A DNA stretch of 64,000 nucleotides, taken from Candidatus Abyssobacteria bacterium SURF_5. GTDB taxonomy: Bacteria; Abyssobacteria; SURF-5. Shown here piece by piece: positions 44,827-64,000 of the stretch. A model generated the notes under the pieces. That model saw only the letters and a program-made list of their open reading frames with translations. It had not been told where the DNA came from and made no database searches. The translations under genes were made by a program, and so were the position numbers. How positions within the stretch are numbered: the first letter of the stretch is position 1; each line of letters starts with the position of its first letter. The DNA is taken from NCBI GenBank assembly GCA_003598085.1, contig QZKU01000075.1:1-64000 (forward strand), written 5' to 3'.

Positions 44827-46008
44827 CTAATCTTCCTTTCCGAAAATGGCCACGGTGCAGGTGAAAGAACCCGGCCTGCCGCCAAGGTTGTGCGTCAACC
44901 CCAGCCTGGGGTTCTTGCGCTGGCGCGCTCCCGCCTTCCCCTGGAGCTGTTTATATACCTCATAAATCATTCGGATCCCGCTCGCTCCGATCGGATGCCC
45001 GAAACATTTCAGGCCACCATCAATGTTAATGGCCAGCTCGCCGTCCTTATCAAAGGTTCCAGCCTCATGATATTCAGGGCCCTTCCCCCTCGGAGCAAAG
45101 CCAAGGTCCTCCGTGATGACCAACTCCGTGATGGTGAAGCAGTCGTGCACCATCGCCATGTCGATCTCTTCGAGCGGCACCTTGACGTCGGCCTCGCGAT
45201 ATGCCATTTGCGACGCCCGCACATTTTCCTCGAAATGAACGAAATCATAATCGTCCTGAAGCATCCCTTGCTGGCCGCCGACAGCCATCCCGATGCCTTT
45301 GACAAGCACGTAATCGTCCCTGAACTTTCTCGCCAGCTCCGGGGTGGTGAGAATAGCGGCCGCCGAGCCGTCACTCACTCCGCAGCAATCGAACAAGCCA
45401 AGCGGCCAGGCCACCATGGGCGCCTTCAATGCCTGTTCGAGTGAGATCTCTTTTTGGAAATGCGCCTTCGGGTTTAAAGCTCCGTTCTTGTGGTTCTTTA
45501 CCGCGATCCGCGCGAGCGTCTTCTTGAGCTCGTCCATTGGCACGTTGTAATGGTGCGCGTAGCGCGTCGCCGCAAGTGCGAACTGTACCGGGGGCGGTGT
45601 ATTGACATCGACCATGCTGCTGCCGGGAGCGCCGAAACCTCCGAGTCCCGTCCAGCCGGTATCCTTCAGCTTTTCCACACCGATCGCAAGCACGATGTCG
45701 TGTATGCCGGCAGCAACCGCATAGCAGGCGTTCCGGAACGCATCAGTCGCCGTGCAGCACGCATTTTCAACGCGGGTGATCGGCACATAATCCAGTTTCA
45801 AGGCTGCCGCGGCCGGCTGGCCGGTCATGCCGGATTGCACCGTCCCCAGCCATGCCGCTTCGATGTCCTTCGGATCTATTCCCGCATCTTCATAGGCCTC
45901 ATATGCCGCCTCGACCATGAGGTCACTGGCGTCGCTCTCCCAGCGTTCGCCGAACTTGGAGCAGCCCATTCCAATTATTGCGACCTTGTCTTTTATTGAT
46001 GCACTCAT
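44827..46008 (-). CDS. SCP2-type thiolase / acetyl-CoA acetyltransferase, copy 1
   Basis: A 393-residue thiolase of the lipid-transfer/SCP2-like group. It starts MSASIKDKVAIIGMGCSKFGERW. The nucleophilic Cys is in ENACCTATDA (Cys 84 or 85), where the usual pattern is NxCxSG. The catalytic His is in KCFGHPIGASG, and MVHDCFTITELV is the family segment. The ATG has a GAGGTGA RBS. It lies 9 nt after the HMG-synthase-like/DUF35 gene and is co-transcribed. A thiolysis or Claisen condensation of a 3-oxoacyl-CoA is expected; the natural substrate is unknown. The first-copy Cys context is less canonical than in the second copy. Confidence 0.88.
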   Translation of the reverse strand: MSASIKDKVAIIGMGCSKFGERWESDASDLMVEAAYEAYEDAGIDPKDIEAAWLGTVQSGMTGQPAAAALKLDYVPITRVENACCTATDAFRNACYAVAAGIHDIVLAIGVEKLKDTGWTGLGGFGAPGSSMVDVNTPPPVQFALAATRYAHHYNVPMDELKKTLARIAVKNHKNGALNPKAHFQKEISLEQALKAPMVAWPLGLFDCCGVSDGSAAAILTTPELARKFRDDYVLVKGIGMAVGGQQGMLQDDYDFVHFEENVRASQMAYREADVKVPLEEIDMAMVHDCFTITELVITEDLGFAPRGKGPEYHEAGTFDKDGELAINIDGGLKCFGHPIGASGIRMIYEVYKQLQGKAGARQRKNPRLGLTHNLGGRPGSFTCTVAIFGKED

Positions 46009-46017
46009 TTTCTCACC

Positions 46018-47445
46018 TCATTCCTTGATCCGGGCAGGAATGCATTTCCAGAAATAGTTGGGAACGCCCCCGACGGTAGCGACCCTGCGAAACGACATTT
46101 CAAGCGGCATATCCACTGCGATCTCTTCGATTTCGCGATCGGTCATCGTGCACAGCATCCGACCGCCGCCCTCGAAGTTGACGATACAAACAGCGAGCGG
46201 GATATCCATCGTGCCCGCGATATAATCCAGCGAGTACGTGAATAATTTCCCTTTCTTATCAGAGAAGCGCACCTTGTCGAAATCATCCTTCGTGCGGCAT
46301 CTCGTGCACACCCGCTGAGGCGGGTACTGCACCGTACCACAACTCCTGCATTTCACCCCATGCAGTCTCAGAATTCGATCACGCTCCCTCCATAGTGCGG
46401 AGGACGACGGCGGCGATGCCGCGGGACGACGTGATGCGGCCTCGGCCGAAAGGATTCCCCTCCATTGCGCGTATGAGGCATAATCAGGCACATTCTTCTT
46501 CGACTGCAGGGCTCGCCTGAATCCTCCCCTCTTCTTCATCGTATCGATTCGATCGGTAACCCGAAGAAGGAAAATATCAATCCCGTTTCCGTAACTGATC
46601 AGCAGAATCCTTTCTCCCGGCTCCGCCTCCTCGAGCGCGCCTGCCAGCATCAACAGCGGATGCGCACAACCGGTCAGCCCGACAGCCCCGAACAGGCCGT
46701 CCTGCAGTCTCGACGGCTCAATTTTCAGCAGCTTCGCGATCTGCAAATGCCACCGGTAGTCGGGCGCGTATGAAACGATTTTGGCAAAATCCGCAGGCGC
46801 GCATTTGTACTTTTTCATGCATTCGGAAACAGCCTGGCGAAAGGCGCTCACAAATCCTTGCTCGATAACAAATCGATCCTCCCAGGATTTCACATACTCA
46901 TCTTTGTCTGTTCTCCAGACATCGCTGATCTCGTGATACATCGTATAATAGCCCTGGATTTCGGCGACCACGTTCTCAGATCCCACCACCACGGCGGCTG
47001 CGGCGTCTCCGAAGAGCATCTCAAACTGCGAGCGCGGAGGCGGCATTCGCGTGTCGGCGGCAGCAACAAGAACACGGCCTGCGCTTCCCGACTGTACGGC
47101 ATCCGCAGCGGCGCGCAGCGCCTGCGTTCCGGCCCGCAACGAATCCGAGAAATCGCTCGTTCGTATATCGGTGCGAAGGTCTGCGGCGGCCGCCATCGTC
47201 ACCGAAGCCCCTCTCTCGAGGAAAGGAGCGGTCGTTGATGCGAAAAATGCACCGTCAATTGATTCGCGATCTACTCCATTCAGGCAATCAAGTGACGCGG
47301 CAACTGCCATGGTGAGGCTATCTTCATCGAAATTTGCAACCGCTTTCTCACCCGGCGCACCCGGGAATCCCCATTCCCGGGAGATAATCTCCCGCGCCAG
47401 CCGCCACGTTGGAATGTAAGTGCCGCATGCGACTATTCCAACCAT
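46018..47445 (-). CDS. HMG-CoA-synthase-like protein fused to DUF35 zinc-ribbon/OB domain, copy 1
   Basis: A 475-residue protein. Residues 1-320 follow the archaeal HMG-CoA synthase/KAS-III fold (GIVACGTYIPTWRL, LLISYGNGIDIFLL). Residues 360-475 are a DUF35 domain: zinc ribbon CRSC-x11-CTRC and an OB-fold (AVCIVNFEGGGRMLCTM). At the position of the catalytic Cys (family pattern ACKAGT) it has SLRAGT, with Leu 103. ATG 47445 has AAGGAG 9 nt upstream; TTG 47451 is less likely. Archaea encode thiolase, HMG synthase and DUF35 as three proteins that form a substrate-channelling complex; here the last two are fused beside the thiolase. Enzymatic activity is doubtful. Confidence 0.8.
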   Translation of the reverse strand: MVGIVACGTYIPTWRLAREIISREWGFPGAPGEKAVANFDEDSLTMAVAASLDCLNGVDRESIDGAFFASTTAPFLERGASVTMAAAADLRTDIRTSDFSDSLRAGTQALRAAADAVQSGSAGRVLVAAADTRMPPPRSQFEMLFGDAAAAVVVGSENVVAEIQGYYTMYHEISDVWRTDKDEYVKSWEDRFVIEQGFVSAFRQAVSECMKKYKCAPADFAKIVSYAPDYRWHLQIAKLLKIEPSRLQDGLFGAVGLTGCAHPLLMLAGALEEAEPGERILLISYGNGIDIFLLRVTDRIDTMKKRGGFRRALQSKKNVPDYASYAQWRGILSAEAASRRPAASPPSSSALWRERDRILRLHGVKCRSCGTVQYPPQRVCTRCRTKDDFDKVRFSDKKGKLFTYSLDYIAGTMDIPLAVCIVNFEGGGRMLCTMTDREIEEIAVDMPLEMSFRRVATVGGVPNYFWKCIPARIKE

Positions 47446-47637
47446 ATGCAATCACTCCTTTCAAATGTCCTTGAGATAAGGAGCACTCACCACAAGAACT
47501 GCATTCTTCCCGCGGGGCCAAATATATGCAATCGCCGGTCAAATGTCAACAACGGCGCAACGCCCTCCCCGCCTGCCAACACTGTTCTGAGCCAACATCC
47601 CCGAGCTTGAGGTGCGCGCCCGGCATACGAAAACTTC

Positions 47638-48410
47638 TCAGCGGGTGTCTGGGGGCTGTCCCTCATAGCGAATCGTCGCCAGGCACAGCGCCTGGTTTCG
47701 ATCCTCGATGTGCAAGGCCTGCTCGAGGCCCGCCGCATCCAGGTTGCAGTTGATTGCCTCCTTCGTCAGCCGCAGACCCAGCGGATTCTTGCGACACATT
47801 TTATCTGCCAGGTCGCGGGCTTCATCAAGGAGTGTCTCGCGCCGGACAATTCGGCTGACCATCCCCAGTTTGAGTGCGGTCTCAGCGTCCATGAAATCGC
47901 CGGCAGCATGAACTCATATGCCCGCCCTGCCCCGATCATTCGGGGCAGAAAATAGCTGGAGCCGCAATCCGCGCCGCCCAGCCCAATGTTAATGTAGGCA
48001 GCCCCGAACCGGACGTCGCGGGAAACGATCCGCACGCAGCATCCGAGTGCGAAACTCAATCCTCCGCCCACGGCGGCGCCGTGGATCGCGCCGATTATCG
48101 GTTGAGGCGCCTGCCGCATCTTTAGCAGCAATCGCGAGATGCGCGCCTGCAGTCGATATATGATTTTGAGGTCGGCGCTCAACAGCTGTCCGGCCGTCTC
48201 TTTCAAGTCAAGCCCGGAGCAGAATCCCCTGTCTCCCGCGCCACACATGATGATCACGCGTGTTGCGTCGTCATGCCGCCGCGCGTTCCAGAATTCTTCA
48301 AGCTCTATGATCATGGTTTCGTCGATGGCATTGACCCGGTCTGGCCGGTTGAGAGTCAATAATCCGACAAGGTCAGAGACTTCATAGCGGATCGACTTGT
48401 ATTGAGTCAT
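47638..48410 (-). pseudogene. Enoyl-CoA hydratase/isomerase family protein, frameshifted
   Basis: Starting at ATG 48410 the sequence reads as a crotonase: MTQYKSIRYEVSDLVGLLTLNRPDRVNAID, then CGAGDRGFCSGLDLKE and IGAIHGAAVGGGLSFALGCCVRI, the CoA-binding and oxyanion-hole segments. After the RAYEFML block (near 47911) the family continues in another frame, with FMDAETALKLGMVSRIV and the C-terminal helices to 47638. One missing base between about 47897 and 47911 explains it. Joined, the protein is about 257 residues, the normal size. It may be a real pseudogene or a sequence or assembly error; the rest of both halves is well conserved. Confidence 0.85.
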
Positions 48411-48610
48411 ACGGTTACCTCCAAAACAATTAGTGGGGCTTCAAAGACTCATGGCCTCTCAATACCGGATGGCGTGGGGAATCCATAATATCATAAATCG
48501 GGTGATTTGGATGCTGCGCGGACCGGGCGATGGAGGTTTAAGTCGATGCTGAAAGCAACTGCAATGCGCAAATCGGCCAATAAAGGTGGGGCAGCGCTGA
48601 AGGAGATCCT

Positions 48611-48937
48611 CTAATGAAATTCGACGTGCTGGACGACGTCGTTTTTTTTGATCTGTTCAGTCAATATGCGCTTTGTTTCTTCGCTACGGATGGATTCGAC
48701 TTCGGAGACTTCAAGATTATCCCTATTGCGGCGGGTCTTCCAGCCGAGAATATAGCCGGGGACAATTGCATAGCGACAGCCGGTGATTCCGCAGCATGAG
48801 GTATCCACCACTCCCATGCCGACCACATAAAGAACCTCACGTCCATTGAATGGAAGACGCACTTCCTTCTCGAGGACGTAATGCCCTCCGATAGAGCGAA
48901 CCTCTTCGTCCAGTGGAATGTGGGTATACTCTCGCAT
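48611..48937 (-). CDS. Small conserved-looking protein with a CCG motif, unknown function
   Basis: A 108-residue protein read from ATG 48937, with AGGGGAA 2-8 nt upstream; a GTG at 48970 would add 11 residues. It shows EVLYVVGMGVVDTSCCGITGCRYAIVPGYI, a cysteine-rich beta region, and a charged C-terminal helix (EESIRSEE-type, EQIKKND). No family can be named. It lies between the frameshifted enoyl-CoA hydratase and the second thiolase on the same strand, with gaps of about 120-200 nt, so it may belong to the operon. The three Cys could bind a metal. Confidence 0.6.
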   Translation of the reverse strand: MREYTHIPLDEEVRSIGGHYVLEKEVRLPFNGREVLYVVGMGVVDTSCCGITGCRYAIVPGYILGWKTRRNRDNLEVSEVESIRSEETKRILTEQIKKNDVVQHVEFH

Positions 48938-49054
48938 ATTCCCCTGTGGCTGAAAACTCTGGAATATCACTCCTGTTCCAGAATAAGGATCAATTTTGCA
49001 GAGAAGAAGTGAAAGCGGCGACTCTTGCTGCAGCCGCCGCCCTCAACCGAAAAA

Positions 49055-50266
49055 TTACACGCCGTATTTGCCGACAATTGCTATGCTGCACACGTTCATG
49101 AACGGGAAGCCGCCCAGATTGTGTGTCAGCCCGATCTTCGGGTCCTTGAGCTGGCGCTTATCGGCTCTGCCATGAAGCTGCAGATACATTTCATACACCA
49201 TTCGCAAGCCTGATGCCCCGATCGGATGACCGAAGCACTTCAGCCCGCCGTCAACCTGGCAGGGAACTCCACCGCCGTCGAGATTATAGAAGCCATCCAT
49301 CACGTCCTTCAGCGCGCCTCCCTTGGGCGAAATATGGAGGTCTTCCATCGTGACAAACTCGGTGATGGAGAAGCAATCATGCACTTCCATCATCGAGATT
49401 TCCTTGCGCGGATCCTTGATTCCGGCTTCCTCATACGCCTTCCGGCTTGCCTTTTCGGTTGTAACGAAGTGGTCGCCGTCCCATTCGTTGAAACCGAGTT
49501 CCTCGCCGCTGCTCAAAGCGAGTTGAAGCGCCTTCACGGTGATAAAATCCTTCTTGCCGAGATCCTTCGCGATCTTTGGAGTCGTCACGATGGCGCAGGC
49601 CGAGCCATCGCTTACACCGCAGCAATCGAACAGGCCGAGCGGATGCGCGATAATGGGCGCTCCCAGGATCTGCTCGACCGTCACCGGTTTTCGCAGATGC
49701 GCTTTGGGGTTAAGAGCGCCATTCGCATGACTCTTTGCAGACACGTGCGCGAGAGCAAGCTTCAGCTCATCGTCCGGAATCTTGTATTTCGCGGCGTACG
49801 CGCTCGCAAGCTGCGCGAATGAGCCGGGTGCGGTAATCTGAGGAAACCAGAGCCACGTCAAACTTCCTGAACTCGAGCCGCCGCCGGGCAACCCGCCGTA
49901 GCCGGTATCCTTCAGCTTTTCGACTCCCATGGCCAGACAGATGTCATACGCGCCGGATGCAACCGCATAAACGGCTCCCCTCAGTGATTCCGTCCCGCTC
50001 GCACAGAAGTTTTCAACGCGGGTGCATGGGATCTTATCCAGCCGCAGCGCCATCGAAAGCGGCAGGGCGCTTTTGCCGACATTCACTTCGTCCATACACG
50101 TGCCAAGCCACGCGGCCTGGATGTCCTTCTTCTCGATTCCCGCGTCCTCCACGCACTCGGTGAACGCTTCGACCATCAGCTCTTCCGCGCCTACGTCCCA
50201 CCGTTCGCCGAACCTCGTGCAGCCCATGCCGATTATTGCGACCTTATCTTTTATTCCGGTTGCCAT
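49055..50266 (-). CDS. SCP2-type thiolase / acetyl-CoA acetyltransferase, copy 2
   Basis: A 403-residue paralogue of the thiolase at 44827, sharing the start GIKDKVAIIGMGCTRFGERW and most motifs. The nucleophile is in ENFCASGTES (Cys 88, canonical); the catalytic His is in KCFGHPIGASG; the C-terminal NLGGFPFMNVCSIAIVG contains the second catalytic Cys. The RBS AGGAGG precedes ATG by 7 nt. It follows the second HMG-synthase-like/DUF35 gene by 13 nt. Expected to cleave or form a 3-oxoacyl-CoA. The two thiolase copies differ in size and active-site context, suggesting different substrates. Confidence 0.9.
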   Translation of the reverse strand: MATGIKDKVAIIGMGCTRFGERWDVGAEELMVEAFTECVEDAGIEKKDIQAAWLGTCMDEVNVGKSALPLSMALRLDKIPCTRVENFCASGTESLRGAVYAVASGAYDICLAMGVEKLKDTGYGGLPGGGSSSGSLTWLWFPQITAPGSFAQLASAYAAKYKIPDDELKLALAHVSAKSHANGALNPKAHLRKPVTVEQILGAPIIAHPLGLFDCCGVSDGSACAIVTTPKIAKDLGKKDFITVKALQLALSSGEELGFNEWDGDHFVTTEKASRKAYEEAGIKDPRKEISMMEVHDCFSITEFVTMEDLHISPKGGALKDVMDGFYNLDGGGVPCQVDGGLKCFGHPIGASGLRMVYEMYLQLHGRADKRQLKDPKIGLTHNLGGFPFMNVCSIAIVGKYGV

Positions 50267-50279
50267 TGCAGTTTCCTCC

Positions 50280-51734
50280 TTATGCTTCCGCTTGCGGAAG
50301 AGCCTTCCAGAAGTAGCCGTGGAAGCCGCGTTCCTTGTCGTGATACCGTTTGCGGAAAGCCATTTTGACCGTTTTTCCGACCTTCAGGTCGCCAAGTTCG
50401 CAATCGCTGAAGTCGGCAAGAATTCTTCCGCCTCCTTCGAACTGGACCATTCCGTAGCAATTCGGCGGCTCGACGGAAACAGATAACATGTCGCCGGTGA
50501 ACGTCTTGATGTGAGCCGGCGTGTCCGCAAATTCGACCGACTCTTGAGATTTGACCGAACCGCAGTCGGGATTGACGCAGATATCGTTGCTCGGGATCTG
50601 GCGCGTGCCGCATTTGCGGCATTCGCCGCCGACAAAACCAAGGAGGAACTTGCGTTTTCTGTAGAGAACGGTGAGAGCCGTCTGAGTGGGCGCTTCCGCC
50701 CGAATCCCCATTTCCGTCTGCATCAGGTCGCGGAACCGGAGGAACTTCTGGTAAACATCCACTTCTTTCCGGTTCGCGAGAGAACCCTTTATGCCCTGGC
50801 GCGGTGGCAGAGACTTGATTTTATCCGTCACCTGGAACAGCAGCGCATCCGACCCCTGCCCGAAGCTCGCCACGAGAATCTTGTCGCCCGGCTGGGCCTC
50901 CTCGAGCGCGGAGATGAACATCACGAGCGCGTGGGCCGCTCCGGTCTCGCCGCATACTTCGTGCATATTATCCACCAACTGCTCGCGCTTGAACCCCATG
51001 CCCTTGGCGATACCCTGGTGCTCCCGTTTAAAGAAGCACGGGAATACCAGCTTCGAGATATCCGCCGGAGACATGTTGCACTTCTTAAGCAGCCCGGTGA
51101 CTACTTCGGGAATGATCTTTGAATAGCCCTCATCACGAACCCACCGCTCTTCCCAGTTGTAATCGTATTTATTCATCGACCCGCGATAATGATCAACAAA
51201 ATCGTAAGATACCGAATAGCTCCCGAGGCATTCGGCAATGACATTCTCCGTCCCCAGCAGAAGAGAGGCCGCACCATCACCGTACCACATCTCATGAAAA
51301 TAGGCCGACTTGGTTATGCGCATATCGGCAGCCGTTAGGAGAACCGATTTCTTTTCGCCGCCTTTTAATGCCTCAAGGGCAGTCACCATCGCCGTCGTCG
51401 CTGTCTTTTGGGAAGCGGTGAAGTCGGCGGTCAGAACATTGTCCTTGAGATTCAAGGCCGTTGCTACAATTCCCGAATTCTGCCGATCAGCAAAGGGGGC
51501 CGTGGTGGAGGCCATGTACAGCGCATCAACTTTGCTCTTATCCATCCCCACCAGGCAATCACGGGCGGCGGCGACCGACATAGTCAATGAGTCTTCATCC
51601 CAATTGCACATCGAACGCTCGCCCTGGGCCACCATCATGATGGCGGGGGCGAACCATCCCATGGCCTGAAAGACTGCCATCCGCTGCAGTCTCAAACGAG
51701 GGATGTATCCTCCGTATGCAGTGATACCGATCAT
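50280..51734 (-). CDS. HMG-CoA-synthase-like protein fused to DUF35 zinc-ribbon/OB domain, copy 2
   Basis: A 484-residue paralogue of the protein at 46018. Start ATG 51734 has a GGAGGAGAGC RBS 4 nt upstream; a longer frame to 51845 lacks similarity. The synthase-like part (ITAYGGYIPRLRLQ, STTAPF, ADFTASQKTATTAM) has Gln 109 where catalytic Cys is expected. The DUF35 part carries zinc ligands CRKC and CVNPDC and an OB-fold (GMVQFEGGGRILADF). Its neighbour is a thiolase 13 nt downstream. Both copies lack the Cys, so it is a property of this subgroup rather than a chance mutation. Confidence 0.82.
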   Translation of the reverse strand: MIGITAYGGYIPRLRLQRMAVFQAMGWFAPAIMMVAQGERSMCNWDEDSLTMSVAAARDCLVGMDKSKVDALYMASTTAPFADRQNSGIVATALNLKDNVLTADFTASQKTATTAMVTALEALKGGEKKSVLLTAADMRITKSAYFHEMWYGDGAASLLLGTENVIAECLGSYSVSYDFVDHYRGSMNKYDYNWEERWVRDEGYSKIIPEVVTGLLKKCNMSPADISKLVFPCFFKREHQGIAKGMGFKREQLVDNMHEVCGETGAAHALVMFISALEEAQPGDKILVASFGQGSDALLFQVTDKIKSLPPRQGIKGSLANRKEVDVYQKFLRFRDLMQTEMGIRAEAPTQTALTVLYRKRKFLLGFVGGECRKCGTRQIPSNDICVNPDCGSVKSQESVEFADTPAHIKTFTGDMLSVSVEPPNCYGMVQFEGGGRILADFSDCELGDLKVGKTVKMAFRKRYHDKERGFHGYFWKALPQAEA

Positions 51735-52083
51735 TTTTGCTCTCCTCCGTTTCTCGTAAATTGTTGCCCGACCCGAGCTGAATGAAGGCCGCCACCAGTA
51801 GAGCCAGTGCTTGTATTTTTCCGACCTCGCTTGGGGCAGAGGCACGGCTCCTGCAGACGACGGGGACGCTCCTTCCCTGTTTCAGCAAGACATCCGAGTT
51901 TATGCGCTAGATACTATATTCCAGAAGGCGCGGCAGGTCAAGAGAAAAGTGAACAAGTCTCAGAGACTGGTCACAATTCCTCATGTTTTCGTCGGAAGAA
52001 CTCTCGAAAAGGCATAGTTTAAGCAGATTCTGGAGCAACGTTCGACGCAGATCCGCCGCGGCAACGGCTCGCCAAGACAGGGT
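51735..52083. other. 349-nt gap between DUF35 operon and DUF362 gene
   Basis: It holds the promoter of the copy-2 operon (51913-51941), which leaves about 170 nt of untranslated leader. No gene or terminator hairpin is seen in the rest. Confidence 0.5.
51913..51941 (-). promoter_or_regulatory. Sigma-70 promoter of the copy-2 thiolase/DUF35 operon
   Basis: On the minus strand TTGACC (51941-51936), a 17-nt spacer and TATAGT (51918-51913); each hexamer matches 5 of 6 consensus bases. The start would be near 51906, giving about a 170-nt leader before ATG 51734. Confidence 0.65.
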
Positions 52084-57230: not shown

Positions 57231-59651
57231 ATGTTCTTTCCCAGAGTTCAGAACCTTCTCTATTTATTGATATGCCTTCCTCTGTTGTTGTTGTCCGCTG
57301 CTCCTGCGGCCGCAGACCAGGAGCAGGAGAGCGAATTCCTGCTTTCGGGCGAGGTGCTCATTCATTATGACGTGTTCGGCGTGCCCCACATCACCGCCTC
57401 AAATGACGCCGACCTTCTTTTCGCCCAAGGCTACGTCACTGCGCGTGACCGCCTCTGGCAGATGGAATATAACCGGAGGCTCGTTGCAGGGCGTCTGGCC
57501 GAAATTCTTGGCGAATCCTATGTCGAGCAGGACTATGAGATCAGACGGCTCGGCCTGTATCGCTCCTCCGTCGCCACGTACGAAACGCTCAGTGACGAAA
57601 TGAAAAAGTTGTCGATCGCCTTCGCCGCGGGCGTCAATCACTACGTCAACACCCACCAAGACCATCTCCCCCGCGAGTTCAAGGATCTTGGATACGTACC
57701 CGAGCCCTGGCACCCGATCGATTCGACTGCGATTCCCCGAATGATGTTTTGGCATCTTTCAGGGTCACTCGAAGAAGAGCTGATGCTCGCCAAGTTGGTT
57801 GACGAATTGGGCCCTGATAAAGCCCTCGAATTGGTTTCGTCAAGACCGGCCGACCCCGAGACTCATATCAGATGGCGGCAGGCGGCCGAGATCCTCCCGC
57901 AAGCTTTCGGCGCCCACGGCTTTCCAATTCTGGCGGCGCTGGAAGACTTTTCCCGAGGCCACGGGGCAGCACGCTCGATCGGCAGCAACAACTGGGTCAT
58001 TGACGGCACAAAATCCGCCACCGGCGCTCCGATTTTGGCGAATGATCCGCACCTGGCATTGCTCAATCCGCCGATCTGGCACGAAGCGCACCTGATGGGT
58101 CCCGGAATCAATGTTATCGGCTCCACGTTTCCCGGTGTTCCCGGGATAATCATCGGGCACAACGAGCACATTGCCTGGGGAGTCACCAATGTCGGGTACG
58201 ACGTTTGCGATCTGTATATCGAGAAGCGTGATCCCGAAAACAACAAAAATTATCTGTATAAAGGCGAGTCGAGACCCTTCCGGAAAGTGACCGAAAAGAT
58301 CGCGTACAGGAGCGGCGGCTCGATGAAGAAAGTTGAGCGCGATATACTCTTCACGCTGCATGGTCCCGTTGTTGCGGAAGAAGAGAACCACGTCGTCTCC
58401 ATGCGCTGGACCGGGCACGAGCCCTCCACCGAGTTTAAATATATGTACCTGCTGAACCGGGCTTCGAATGTGGCCGAATTTCGCGATGCCCTCAATTTCT
58501 ACCAGGTAGGCGCACAGAACTTCGTTTACGCCGACATCGACGGCAATATCTTTTATCAACCGACCGGGAAGGTCCCCATTCGCAATGGCGCGCCGTATCT
58601 TCCGCTTGACGGCTCGTCCGGCGAGTGCGAGTGGGAGAGCTATATTCCGTATGATAGCCTGCCAAGCGTCCTCAATCCGGAGGAACATTTTATCGCGACC
58701 GCCAACGCTCGTCCCGTCGATGAAGCGTACCCGTTCTATATCGGGTACTTTTTCGATATCGGATACCGGGTTCGCAGGATAAAGGACCTCCTTTCGGCCA
58801 AGGAAAAGCTGACGTTCGAGGAAGTTCAGGCTATCCAGGGCGATGACTACGTTCTGGCTGCGGAAAGGCTGAAACCGCTGCTGCTCGAGGCCATTGAGGC
58901 CGAGAAGAAATTGCTTCCGGCAAGAACGCTTCAAGCCGCGGCGCTCATCGAACAATGGGATAATTACTCGACCACCGACAGCGCCGCCTGCACTATCTTC
59001 AATAAATGGCTTGAACGAATTGCCTTTAATGCTCTTCATGATGACCTCACCGACGAATCGTTTGAGTACTGGGCCTCCAATCCCGATATCATCGTGGTAC
59101 TCCTGGTGCGAAGCGCATCACCGGATGAACTCAAGTTCGATTGGTTCGATAATGCCAGGACCGAGAGGCGCGAGACCAAAAACCAGATCATAGCGCGCAG
59201 CCTCCAGGAGGTTCTCGATGATTTCTCTTTCAGGTACGGCTTCCAAATGAAGGACTGGGCATGGGGAAAAACCCACACGACCACGCTGACTCATGGGATG
59301 GGCAAGATAAATGCCTCGTACAATAATGGCCCCCATCCCCGACGGGGATGCAACGATACGATCAATAATGCCGGGTTCCCCTTCTTCAACAAGACATTCG
59401 CATCCGGCTCAGGCCCCTCATTGCGAATGGCGGTCGAGTTGCGGCCTGGGGTGGAACGCGCAGAGAACGTAATCCCGGGCGGCCAGTGCGCGAACCCAGC
59501 GAGCCCGCATTACCAGGACCAGCTCGTCAATCTCTGGCTCAGGAACAAGGCGCATCCAATGCTCTTTAGCAGGGAACAGTTACAGAATAATCTGGAAGGA
59601 GTGCTGAAGCTGGTGCCGGCTGAATCGGAAGAAACGCGGTCAGAAAAATAA
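57231..59651 (+). CDS. Penicillin-acylase-family Ntn hydrolase (exported)
   Basis: An 806-residue member of the penicillin amidase/AHL acylase family, which is secreted and self-cleaved. A signal peptide (1-27, LPLLLLSAAPAAA) is followed by the alpha chain and linker. The beta chain would start at Ser 252 in RSIGSNNWVIDGTKSATGAPILANDPHL, where GSNNW is the catalytic nucleophile motif. It also has IPGIIIGHNEHIAWGVTN and FVYADIDGNIFYQPTG, the conserved positions of the family. Length fits. Natural substrates are acyl-amides such as acyl-homoserine lactones or beta-lactams; the actual one is not known. Confidence 0.92.
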   Translation: MFFPRVQNLLYLLICLPLLLLSAAPAAADQEQESEFLLSGEVLIHYDVFGVPHITASNDADLLFAQGYVTARDRLWQMEYNRRLVAGRLAEILGESYVEQDYEIRRLGLYRSSVATYETLSDEMKKLSIAFAAGVNHYVNTHQDHLPREFKDLGYVPEPWHPIDSTAIPRMMFWHLSGSLEEELMLAKLVDELGPDKALELVSSRPADPETHIRWRQAAEILPQAFGAHGFPILAALEDFSRGHGAARSIGSNNWVIDGTKSATGAPILANDPHLALLNPPIWHEAHLMGPGINVIGSTFPGVPGIIIGHNEHIAWGVTNVGYDVCDLYIEKRDPENNKNYLYKGESRPFRKVTEKIAYRSGGSMKKVERDILFTLHGPVVAEEENHVVSMRWTGHEPSTEFKYMYLLNRASNVAEFRDALNFYQVGAQNFVYADIDGNIFYQPTGKVPIRNGAPYLPLDGSSGECEWESYIPYDSLPSVLNPEEHFIATANARPVDEAYPFYIGYFFDIGYRVRRIKDLLSAKEKLTFEEVQAIQGDDYVLAAERLKPLLLEAIEAEKKLLPARTLQAAALIEQWDNYSTTDSAACTIFNKWLERIAFNALHDDLTDESFEYWASNPDIIVVLLVRSASPDELKFDWFDNARTERRETKNQIIARSLQEVLDDFSFRYGFQMKDWAWGKTHTTTLTHGMGKINASYNNGPHPRRGCNDTINNAGFPFFNKTFASGSGPSLRMAVELRPGVERAENVIPGGQCANPASPHYQDQLVNLWLRNKAHPMLFSREQLQNNLEGVLKLVPAESEETRSEK

Positions 59652-60986: not shown

Positions 60987-61120
60987 ATGGCATCGCTCCT
61001 TTCCCCCAAGCAGGCGCGCCTTATACTAGCAGACGGGATACGCGACTGGCAAATCGCCGGCGTAATTGTCGGAACTACGGGGGTTCTGCGTCGCTGAGAG
61101 CCTGTATTCAGAACGCAAAA

Positions 61121-61145
61121 AAAGAGGCCGAAATTCTCGGCCTCT
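61121..61145 (-). terminator. Rho-independent terminator of the EF-hand repeat protein gene
   Basis: On the minus strand AGAGGCCGA-GAATT-TCGGCCTCT is a 9-bp stem followed by a run of T (complement of the A7 tract ending at 61123). It lies about 30 nt past the stop codon at 61175. Confidence 0.88.
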
Positions 61146-61174
61146 CTCCTCGCAGTATGCACTTCAGCAGTGAA

Positions 61175-62404
61175 TCAATTATTTCGCGCCTTCTTGCTCT
61201 TCTTCGCTTTCGCCTTCTTCCTGGCGCCGTCATCAGGGTTCTGTTTCGACTTCTTATATTCTTTCTTGGCGGCAGCCGGATTGTCGTCGGCTTTCCTATG
61301 AAGAGCCTTGGTCGTCTCGCCGTGATCTACCGCACCTTTGCGTAAATCCCTTGTCTTTCCCGGATTCTCTTTTCCATCCTTGTAAAGTCTTCGGGTCGCG
61401 CCCCTATGCTCCTCGGCGTCTTTATATCCTTCTCTTACGGCCTTCGGGTTTTTCTCGCCGGCCCGATGCACCTTTTCCGCCGCGTTGGGATGCTCTTGCG
61501 CATCCTGATACACCTTCTTCGTCGCATGTGGATGTTCAGCCAGCGGCTTGCGCTGCCGGTATGCCTCCTGCGCAACCTCCGGATGAGCGTTCAGCCACTC
61601 GCGATTCTGGTACATCTCCTTCGAGAATTCCGGATGCGCGTCCAGATATCGCCTGTTCTTGTAAACTTCCATGGAAACATCGGGGTGCTGCTCCAGCCAC
61701 TTCCGATTCCCATACATCTCTTGCGCGACCTCGGGATGCGCATTCAAATACCAGCGATTTGCATAGGCTTCTTTTGCAACCTCCGGATGGGCTTGCAGCC
61801 ATTTTCGGTCTGAATACATGCGCTGCGCCGCTTCCGGATGCCGGCTCAGCCACTCGCGATTCGAATACAATGATTTCGCGACCTCCGGATGACTCGCCAG
61901 CCATTCGCGGTCGCCGTACATCTGTTCAGCGACCCCGCGGTTCTCATTCAGCCACTCGCTGTTCTTTGCCAGTTCCCCAGCAACTTCAGGATGGCTTTTC
62001 AGCCAGTTCGCGTCCTGAAAATTTGTGTTTGGATAGTCCGCCTTCAAGCTTTCCAGAGCCTGGCGTTCCAGGTTTCGATGGGTCTCCATCTCCCACTGGC
62101 GCTGCATCTTAACTTCGTCATAAGACAGGAGACCGTCGCCGTCCGCGTCAGTCTTTGTGAAACGTCCGGAATCTCGGTAGAATTCGAAATCCCTCTTCGC
62201 GCTCGAAATCTCGGCAGAATCCAAAAAGCCGTCTCCATTCGCGTCAGCTTGATCCCAGCGATCCTGATCGTACTGATCGACATATGATGTCCGCTCCTCT
62301 TCACGGACCGACTGTGCCGCCGCAAAACCGGATGAAACCACTATTACTCCTGCAACAGAGGCACATATCACTACTGTCTTTCCGACGTCCCTCAGTCTCG
62401 ACAT
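61175..62404 (-). CDS. Secreted EF-hand protein with two classes of tandem helical repeat
   Basis: A 409-residue protein read from the third of three consecutive ATGs (62404); GGAGGT lies 8 nt upstream. The signal peptide is residues 1-31 (VVICASVAGVIVVSSGFAAA). Two canonical calcium loops follow: DANGDGFLDSAE (54-65) and DADGDGLLSYDE (86-97). Residues 132-301 are ten in-register 17-residue repeats with consensus REWLxxHPEVAxxxYxN. Residues 303-400 are seven 14-residue repeats lacking the WLx portion (consensus about xxHPxAxxxxYKDx). The end is a Lys/Arg-rich tail. I do not recognise the family. A calcium-controlled, helical rod in the periplasm or matrix is plausible. Confidence 0.82.
   Translation of the reverse strand: MSRLRDVGKTVVICASVAGVIVVSSGFAAAQSVREEERTSYVDQYDQDRWDQADANGDGFLDSAEISSAKRDFEFYRDSGRFTKTDADGDGLLSYDEVKMQRQWEMETHRNLERQALESLKADYPNTNFQDANWLKSHPEVAGELAKNSEWLNENRGVAEQMYGDREWLASHPEVAKSLYSNREWLSRHPEAAQRMYSDRKWLQAHPEVAKEAYANRWYLNAHPEVAQEMYGNRKWLEQHPDVSMEVYKNRRYLDAHPEFSKEMYQNREWLNAHPEVAQEAYRQRKPLAEHPHATKKVYQDAQEHPNAAEKVHRAGEKNPKAVREGYKDAEEHRGATRRLYKDGKENPGKTRDLRKGAVDHGETTKALHRKADDNPAAAKKEYKKSKQNPDDGARKKAKAKKSKKARNN
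61205..61498 (-). repeat. Seven 14-codon tandem repeats, shortened form of the 17-mer
   Basis: Seven 42-nt units follow directly after one extra codon. Each keeps the HP-A-x-x-x-x-Y core but drops the W-L-x part; examples are EKNPKAVREGYKDA and DDNPAAAKKEYKKS. Later units are richer in Lys/Arg and are weaker. Confidence 0.75.
61502..62011 (-). repeat. Ten 17-codon tandem repeats
   Basis: Ten consecutive 51-nt units encode the REWLxxHPEVAxxxYxN consensus with no insertions or deletions. The first is the most divergent (ANWLKSHPEVAGELAKN); later units are closer to each other. A 510-nt tract of this regularity suggests expansion by unequal recombination. Confidence 0.85.
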
Positions 62405-62519
62405 CATCATCCACCTCCATCCAAATTCCTGCCAAAGTGTCATGCTCACGATGTGCTCTTTGGCGTTTTTGACGAAACATCTCCTGAAATATTCATCTGA
62501 GTGAAAAAATAACAGATTG

Positions 62520-62578: not shown

Positions 62579-64000
62579 TCAACAATGTTCGGTTCTTTCG
62601 ATGATATGTTCTTGCACGCGCGGGGATTGCTCGACGAAATAGGCGCTGTAGCCTGCGACCCTGACCACCAGGTCGCGATACTTCTCCGGATGCTCCCGGG
62701 CATCCAGCAGCGTCTGTTTGTTGACCACAGTAAACTGCATCTGGAACCCGCCGAGGGCAAGATAGGTTTTCATGATATCTATGAATTTTCCGATATTCTC
62801 GTCCTTGAAGGTGTCCGGGTTGAATTTCATGTTGAAAATGCTGCCATTTTCCATTAAATGATGGTCAAGCTTCGCTACCGATTTGACCGTGGCTGTCGGG
62901 CCGCGCCGATCACAGCCGCGAGAGGGTGCGACGCCTTCCGTCAGCGATTCAAACGCATAGCGCCCGCTGGGGAGGGCTCCAACGGCGCTTCCCAAAATCA
63001 TCGCCAACTCGATCGACCAGATGCCCGGATTATACACGCTCCCCCAATAATCCCGATGATTTTTCACTTCCTTCAGGAAAACACTGCAGCTTTCACGCGC
63101 GATTTCGTCGACCGAATCGTCATCATTCCCGAATTTGGGCGCCGCATTGAGCAGCATCTGGCGCAGCCTCTCGCCCGACGCGAAGTTATTTTTCAGCGCC
63201 TCGACGAGTTCGGTCATCGTGAGTTTTCGCTCGTCAAACACCAGCTTTTTGACAGCGGCCAGCGAGTCGGCCACGTCGGCGACTCCAATTCCTTCGATGC
63301 CCGCAAAATAATATTTCGAGCCGCCGTCCGTCAGGTCGAGCCCCGACCGCATCCCATCATCGGTGATCGAAGAAAGGAACGGAAGCGGCCGCAAAAGGGA
63401 GTGACCCATTTCAATCGCAGAAATGGATTGATTAAACTGCGTAACGGCGAATCTAACCTGCCTGGCATAAGCGCTCAGCAGTTGATCATATGTTTCGAAG
63501 TCTGCGGCTTTGCCCGTTTGCGGGCCAACCTGGTCGCCGAAAATAGGACAGCGCCCGTTATGAAGCGCCAGCTCCAGGCATTTTGCCAGGTTTACGAACC
63601 CGATGCTGGATGGGCCGATAGACGTGCCCGCGCTGCCCATTTCGATACAGCCGATGTCGGCGTACTCGTGGGCGTCCATTTCCTCAAAGCCAAGCCGCAT
63701 CAGCGCCGGGATCATCACCTCATCATTCATGATGCCTGGCTGGCCTTTTCCGCGCCCGATCAGACGCGCGCAGGCCTCGAGCAGTTCCGGCGGAGAATTC
63801 TTGTGAAGCCGCACGGCCAGGCTGGGGTGACCCAGGCCTGTATTCGCGTGAGCGTGCATGATCAGGTATGTCAGCTCATTGGTCGTGTCGCGTCCATTCA
63901 CGTCCTTGCCGCTCAACGTGATGGTCACGAGATTGCCGCGCCTCGGATAGAAAAGCGACCCCTGCTGCCGTCCGCTGTAGAGCCACGAACTTTGTCCGAT
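62579..64000 (-). CDS. Glycyl radical enzyme (pyruvate formate-lyase family), C-terminal part
   Basis: A 473-residue C-terminal fragment; the gene begins beyond the right edge and reads through it in frame. The active-site thiyl cysteine lies in GCIEMGSAG, and the glycyl radical loop VRVAGYSAYFV is 24 residues from the C-terminus, the usual place. The Glu after the Cys (GCxE) is the base of the eliminase group of glycyl radical enzymes (diol dehydratase, choline lyase type) rather than of pyruvate formate-lyase. It works only without oxygen and needs a radical SAM activase, which is not in the window. Substrate unknown. Confidence 0.93.
   Translation of the reverse strand: MGQSSWLYSGRQQGSLFYPRRGNLVTITLSGKDVNGRDTTNELTYLIMHAHANTGLGHPSLAVRLHKNSPPELLEACARLIGRGKGQPGIMNDEVMIPALMRLGFEEMDAHEYADIGCIEMGSAGTSIGPSSIGFVNLAKCLELALHNGRCPIFGDQVGPQTGKAADFETYDQLLSAYARQVRFAVTQFNQSISAIEMGHSLLRPLPFLSSITDDGMRSGLDLTDGGSKYYFAGIEGIGVADVADSLAAVKKLVFDERKLTMTELVEALKNNFASGERLRQMLLNAAPKFGNDDDSVDEIARESCSVFLKEVKNHRDYWGSVYNPGIWSIELAMILGSAVGALPSGRYAFESLTEGVAPSRGCDRRGPTATVKSVAKLDHHLMENGSIFNMKFNPDTFKDENIGKFIDIMKTYLALGGFQMQFTVVNKQTLLDAREHPEKYRDLVVRVAGYSAYFVEQSPRVQEHIIERTEHC

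Follow-up and report, generated by a model that had tools for sequence, protein, structure and literature searches.

A rare exported EF-hand protein with a predicted alpha-solenoid of 17-residue repeats, and the linkage of about half of its relatives to ECF sigma/anti-sigma genes

We examined positions 1-64,000 of contig QZKU01000075.1 of Candidatus Abyssobacteria bacterium SURF_5, a 64,000-nucleotide stretch hereafter called the window. Close to its end, the minus strand carries a gene whose product (P0001) comprises, from the N- to the C-terminus, a signal peptide, two EF-hand loops, a helical linker, ten 17-residue repeats, about seven 14-residue repeats and a lysine-rich end (Table 1). An earlier note on this DNA had the reading frame, strand and coordinates right, and its start at 62404 is plausible, being one of three equally possible ATG codons (62410, 62407 and 62404) that follow a GGAGGT at 62418-62413. 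Just past the stop codon, a strong hairpin with a U-run gives the gene its own terminator-like site; a terminator consensus scan did not list this hairpin. The genes around it, coding for an OYE-family reductase, a PvdQ-like acylase and a glycyl-radical enzyme, offered no clue to its role. The glycyl-radical enzyme (62579-64000, minus strand), of the PFL2-3 group and carrying an RVAGYSAYF motif, extends past the window end into L074, and its in-window part reaches the cut-off of none of the NCBIfam models listed. The penicillin-amidase family protein at 57231-59651 (plus strand) matches PvdQ weakly, well under the cut-off. Farther off, at 44827-51845 (minus strand), the translations suggest two tandem pairs of thiolase-like and HMG-CoA-synthase-like/OB-fold proteins.

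Table 1. Features of the repeat gene and of its product, in window coordinates
Feature	Coordinates	Strand	Remarks
CDS, EF-hand/17-mer repeat protein	61175..62410	(-)	411 aa counted from ATG 62410; stop 61175-61177
Sec-type signal peptide, residues 1-33	62312..62410	(-)	h-region TVVICASVAGVIVVSSGF; cleavage between AAA and Q; read by eye
EF-hand loop 1 DANGDGFLDSAE, residues 56-67	62210..62245	(-)	Pfam EF-hand_1/EF-hand_7; motif scan
EF-hand loop 2 DADGDGLLSYDE, residues 88-99	62114..62149	(-)	Pfam EF-hand_1 at gathering score; motif scan
Helical linker LKADYPNTNFQD, residues 104-133	62012..62101	(-)	conserved in relatives; AlphaFold
Ten 17-residue units, residues 134-303	61502..62011	(-)	consensus RExLxxHPEVAKExYxN, W/Y/F at position 3; each unit a pair of short helices
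Seven 14-residue units (last one partial), residues 304-401	61208..61501	(-)	basic, low model confidence
Strongly basic C-terminus GARKKAKAKKSKKARNN, residues 388-411	61178..61249	(-)	sequence
Rho-independent terminator-like hairpin and U-run just past stop	61114..61154	(-)	fold -28.3 kcal/mol, z -5.7

The EF-hands are the sole parts of the protein that Pfam and NCBIfam name with confidence. Both loops are canonical (PF13499/PF00036), with 12 residues that fit D-x-[DN]-x-D-G-x-[LI]-x-x-x-E; EF-hand_1 scores exactly at its Pfam cut-off (25.4 bits against 25.4) and EF-hand_7 slightly short of it (27.2 against 30). Judging from these loops the protein very probably binds Ca2+, in line with the earlier note, and its export, also proposed there, is suggested by a typical Sec signal peptide, to which the N-termini of the relatives are comparable.

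The 17-residue units run in perfect register. Ten of them had been counted before, together with seven 14-residue units; the former count held, and the latter came to six clear units and a partial seventh. Identity at an offset of 17 within the array was 0.44; 5,000 shuffles averaged 0.066 and never exceeded 0.149. From residue 304 on, identity at an offset of 14 was 0.26 (shuffles: mean 0.097, maximum 0.234). Three of the 17-mers are degenerate: unit 1 (AxxxN end), unit 2 (ENRG instead of HPEV) and unit 10 (P instead of W). Tandem Repeats Finder detected no repeat in the DNA of the gene, and identity between units at codon positions 1, 2 and 3 was 0.56, 0.72 and 0.44, third positions being the most divergent, which argues that the repeat is old and maintained at the protein level rather than the product of a recent DNA expansion.

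Position frequencies over 127 units gave R1, E/K2, W/F/Y3, L4, H7, P8, E9, V10, A11, Y15 and N17. Within the arrays of 18 proteins, the H/N-P motifs are nearly always spaced by 17, 14 or 10 residues (or by 20, twice 10), classes that differ by 3 to 4 residues, approximately one helical turn. The shorter spacings lie C-terminal to the 17-residue core in the window protein and in L002, L012, L013, L017, L018 and L076, and two Omnitrophota proteins (L009 and L014) have 17-mers plus a separate 14-mer block. Since several relatives also have spacings of 14 or 10 towards their C-terminus, the earlier view of the 14-mer as a 17-mer without its WLx segment gains support, and the two units do align once W-L-x is taken out. 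The accompanying scenario of internal deletion followed by expansion fared less well: the order of events is not established, and P0002, the nearest relative, keeps a length of 17 residues in its C-terminal units, which have lost the tryptophan alone.

No Pfam, NCBIfam or PHROG family matches the repeat unit, and no TPR, Sel1, HEAT or other Pfam repeat was found for the window protein at E≤1, so that the original statement that this is not TPR, Sel1 or HEAT holds against both the Pfam and the NCBIfam repeat models. A match to LRV_2 was obtained in one of 14 family members (E 2.4e-5). Helical segments give a whole-protein score above threshold for PF16525, the MHB family of haem-binding haemophores (32.1 bits against a Pfam gathering score of 27.4), and 9 of 14 relatives match it at E≤0.01. 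In a re-scan at E≤0.01, however, no stretch passed singly, the best one covering positions 19-62 of the 77 of the profile; the NCBIfam haemophore model reached 22.6 against a cut-off of 32, and the protein has no cysteine outside its signal peptide. Because no single stretch is significant and the scores of the unrelated RecA_C, BRK and APOBEC1 climb likewise in the relatives, the MHB score was attributed to inflation by the repeat; the assignment was rejected, and a haemophore is extremely improbable.

AlphaFold, given the window protein with 13 relatives, returned block-mean pLDDT values of about 90-97 over most of residues 121-250, with two short helices per 17-mer and an uncertain tail, and the array alone was modelled with a mean pLDDT of 89.1 and a pTM of 0.81. 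The array is predicted to form regular stacked alpha-alpha units, ordered and alpha-solenoid-like. The earlier note had set a known family or a disordered fold against its own reading; the family searches returned none, and the models point to order. Foldseek searches of the PDB with both models gave nothing at E<0.1 (best E 0.18) and hence none at E≤0.001, and nothing significant was found among viral models. The top weak resemblances were to designed helical repeats, TPRs and the HEAT-like AlkD2; AlkD2 (4x8q; TM 0.46, E 0.36) and CTPR4 (TM 0.36-0.43, E 0.39) are both non-significant. What the array shares with HEAT-like, TPR and designed alpha-solenoids is the stacking of alpha-alpha units into a solenoid; it matches none of them in sequence or, at a significant level, in fold, and its unit of 17 residues sets it apart. 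Known alpha-alpha solenoids have units of mostly about 34-40 residues. The alpha-solenoid repeat is a known kind of fold, of which the 17-residue units are the variation here. Ordered two-helix units of 17 residues, with their 14- and 10-residue forms, would rank among the smallest natural solenoids and be useful to protein designers.

The search of other genomes for the 17-residue pattern, which had been suggested as a check, was made with a strict DNA pattern for two successive units on the contigs of 84,980 species genomes. It gave 14 stretches, 13 of which were true arrays, a lower bound given the strictness of the pattern; they belong to Hydrogenedentota, Omnitrophota, Goldbacteria, FCPU426, Nitrospirae, Deltaproteobacteria, Myxococcales and Gammaproteobacteria MAGs. 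Profile searches added two more arrays (G221 and G408). One relative, in a Hydrogenedentota genome, has 48% identity, and homologues in other phyla keep the layout of the window protein. A profile search of 386 genomes sampled for relatives found the window, G069 and G904 only, the last of which appears to duplicate the G100 record, given the shared contig number and frame length. Two genomes of the same family, the viral contigs scanned and plasmids searched by tblastn gave no relative, and protein-seeded peptide patterns run on genome contigs proved too specific, with no relative confirmed. Apart from the two same-family genomes, those drawn as relatives share nothing closer than the domain. 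The family is rare and patchy in distribution. Matches in G053 and G064 were rejected as simple tandem-repeat frames and one EF-hand-only protein, and L021 was rejected as a chance match inside a 55-codon frame. In a tree of the EF-plus-repeat region, the Omnitrophota stand apart from the rest and the window protein is placed without support.

Absence from the two same-family genomes, rarity among the 386 sampled genomes and the degeneracy of units 1, 2 and 10 and of the tail would fit a lineage-specific gene without strong function, acquired sideways and now decaying. The third-position bias between units argues against such decay, as do the intact EF loops and the conserved linker, a 17-mer register with the same start, residue 134, in the window protein and in P0002, and the gene's own terminator; we regard this explanation as very unlikely.

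By motif scan, the EF-hand loops are absent from four relatives (L012, L013, L017 and L018), which suggests that the family does not depend on Ca2+ and that the array can act without it. Two Omnitrophota proteins, L059 and L042, resemble the family in being exported, in having an EF-hand loop and in their helical units started by H-P, here as 10-residue HPxxA repeats; they differ in a spacing of 10 or 20 instead of 17, and have no Pfam family of their own. L042 has in addition a RED-type tail, as found in relatives of the window protein.

The new observation concerns gene neighbourhoods: 8 of the 16 array genomes (G099, G100, G102, G104, G109, G110, G221 and G408) have one or more of three kinds of gene within a few kb of the array gene, coding for an ECF sigma factor, a zf-HC2 anti-sigma factor or a DUF3106 protein, and not every genome has all three there. 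The unlinked half includes the window genome, and three of its arrays are near contig ends. The linked genomes are not all independent, four being Omnitrophota. By our estimate, chance linkage is unlikely even with four independent lineages, as a span of 12 kb is <1% of each such genome. DUF3106 occurs in 8 of 14 array genomes, in 7 of them on the contig of the array and within a few kb, with a second locus in G109 only. Its gene is placed between the anti-sigma and array genes, or near the array, in L009, L010, L014, L019, L020 and L075, and in G221 this place is occupied by an LTXXQ-like protein (E 0.0018, under the cut-off). Between DUF3106 and the array, two Goldbacteria-group genomes encode an exported protein of 264-266 residues without a Pfam match (L075:6894-7691 and L020:2791-3582). 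Our literature search found no paper naming DUF3106 or the repeat peptides.

For the window gene itself, a scan of the surrounding 74 kb (window plus a 10-kb flank) detected neither an ECF sigma nor a zf-HC2 gene, and no DUF3106 was detected in the genome. The ECF-type promoter motif GGAAC-N18-TC had 13 matches in the window against 10.4 expected, none of them upstream of the repeat gene.

These neighbourhoods bear on two other functions. The earlier note had suggested that the protein binds anionic EPS; as a matrix or surface-polymer binder, it would use its basic tail and Ca2+-binding head to bridge to anionic exopolysaccharide, the array serving as a spacer. The signs of export, the EF-hand pair and a net charge of +15 over the last 108 residues, which bears out the note's description of a strongly basic end, are consistent with this, and most relatives share basic C-terminal ends. 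Against it, none of the examined neighbours of the window gene is a polysaccharide gene, no carbohydrate-binding family matches above the cut-off, the relatives adjoin stress-regulator genes, about half of them at ECF sigma/anti-sigma loci, and the RED-type tails of several relatives have a near-zero net charge per residue. The EPS proposal draws on the basic charge and is otherwise unsupported, and a role as matrix or surface-polymer binder appears unlikely.

Spy and CpxP are small helical periplasmic proteins under envelope-stress control. A chaperone or stress buffer of this type, whose amphipathic helices would hold unfolded envelope proteins in a regulon with DUF3106 and LTXXQ-like proteins, is suggested by several relatives in which a gene for DUF3106 or an LTXXQ-like protein directly precedes the array. 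The LTXXQ match, however, belongs to that neighbour and not to the array protein, which has no Spy match and is modelled as a regular solenoid and not as a Spy-like cradle, so that we consider this function quite unlikely.

The explanation that we tentatively prefer, while holding it at slightly below even chances, is a periplasmic alpha-solenoid scaffold that binds Ca2+ and has relatives in envelope-stress modules. The protein would be exported by Sec to the periplasm or cell surface, where its N-terminal EF-hand pair would bind Ca2+ and serve as a Ca2+ switch. A long helix would join this pair to a solenoid of in-register 17-mers, each predicted with high model confidence as a pair of short helices opened by an H-P cap, and the rod would terminate in shorter basic units. 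The solenoid may hold a partner, either an envelope protein or a polymer, with Ca2+ at the EF-hand pair tuning the binding and the basic tail fixing the protein to an acidic envelope surface. As about half of the known relatives lie in an ECF sigma/zf-HC2/DUF3106 cluster, the ancestral role was probably that of a periplasmic component of the envelope-stress response. This stress role is drawn from the relatives and may not extend to the window genome, which either lacks the module or has it away from the gene; as no such cluster adjoins the gene and a terminator of its own follows it, the window protein may work alone.

A periplasmic EF-hand protein genetically tied to an ECF sigma factor has a precedent in Caulobacter CaBP, which acts in a loop with SigV and responds to Ca2+ and pH (PMC13171946). 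Compared by description, CaBP differs from the array family in its 133 aa and three EF-hands, and no helical array is reported for it (PMC13171946). For EfhP (PA4107) of Pseudomonas aeruginosa, also compared by description, the portions of the published accounts considered here describe no repeat array (PMC4053335, PMC9132961). A broader proposal, which we regard as possible but doubtful, is a new modular class of exported helical repeats quantised at 10, 14 and 17 residues, acting as Ca2+-tuned periplasmic sensors or scaffolds for ECF sigma/anti-sigma stress systems in little-studied phyla. The linkage in the relatives connects unnamed groups of helical proteins to envelope stress and makes a testable prediction.

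Omnitrophota also encode proteins with RED-type tails and no 17-mer array that adjoin ECF sigma/zf-HC2 genes at six further loci (L097, L098, L099, L102, L103 and L104), detected by the scan that gave none for the window and its flank. Their tails (RREDVRDRRED) are heptad-like, and these proteins, apparently unnamed in Pfam, perhaps form a wider family of their own.
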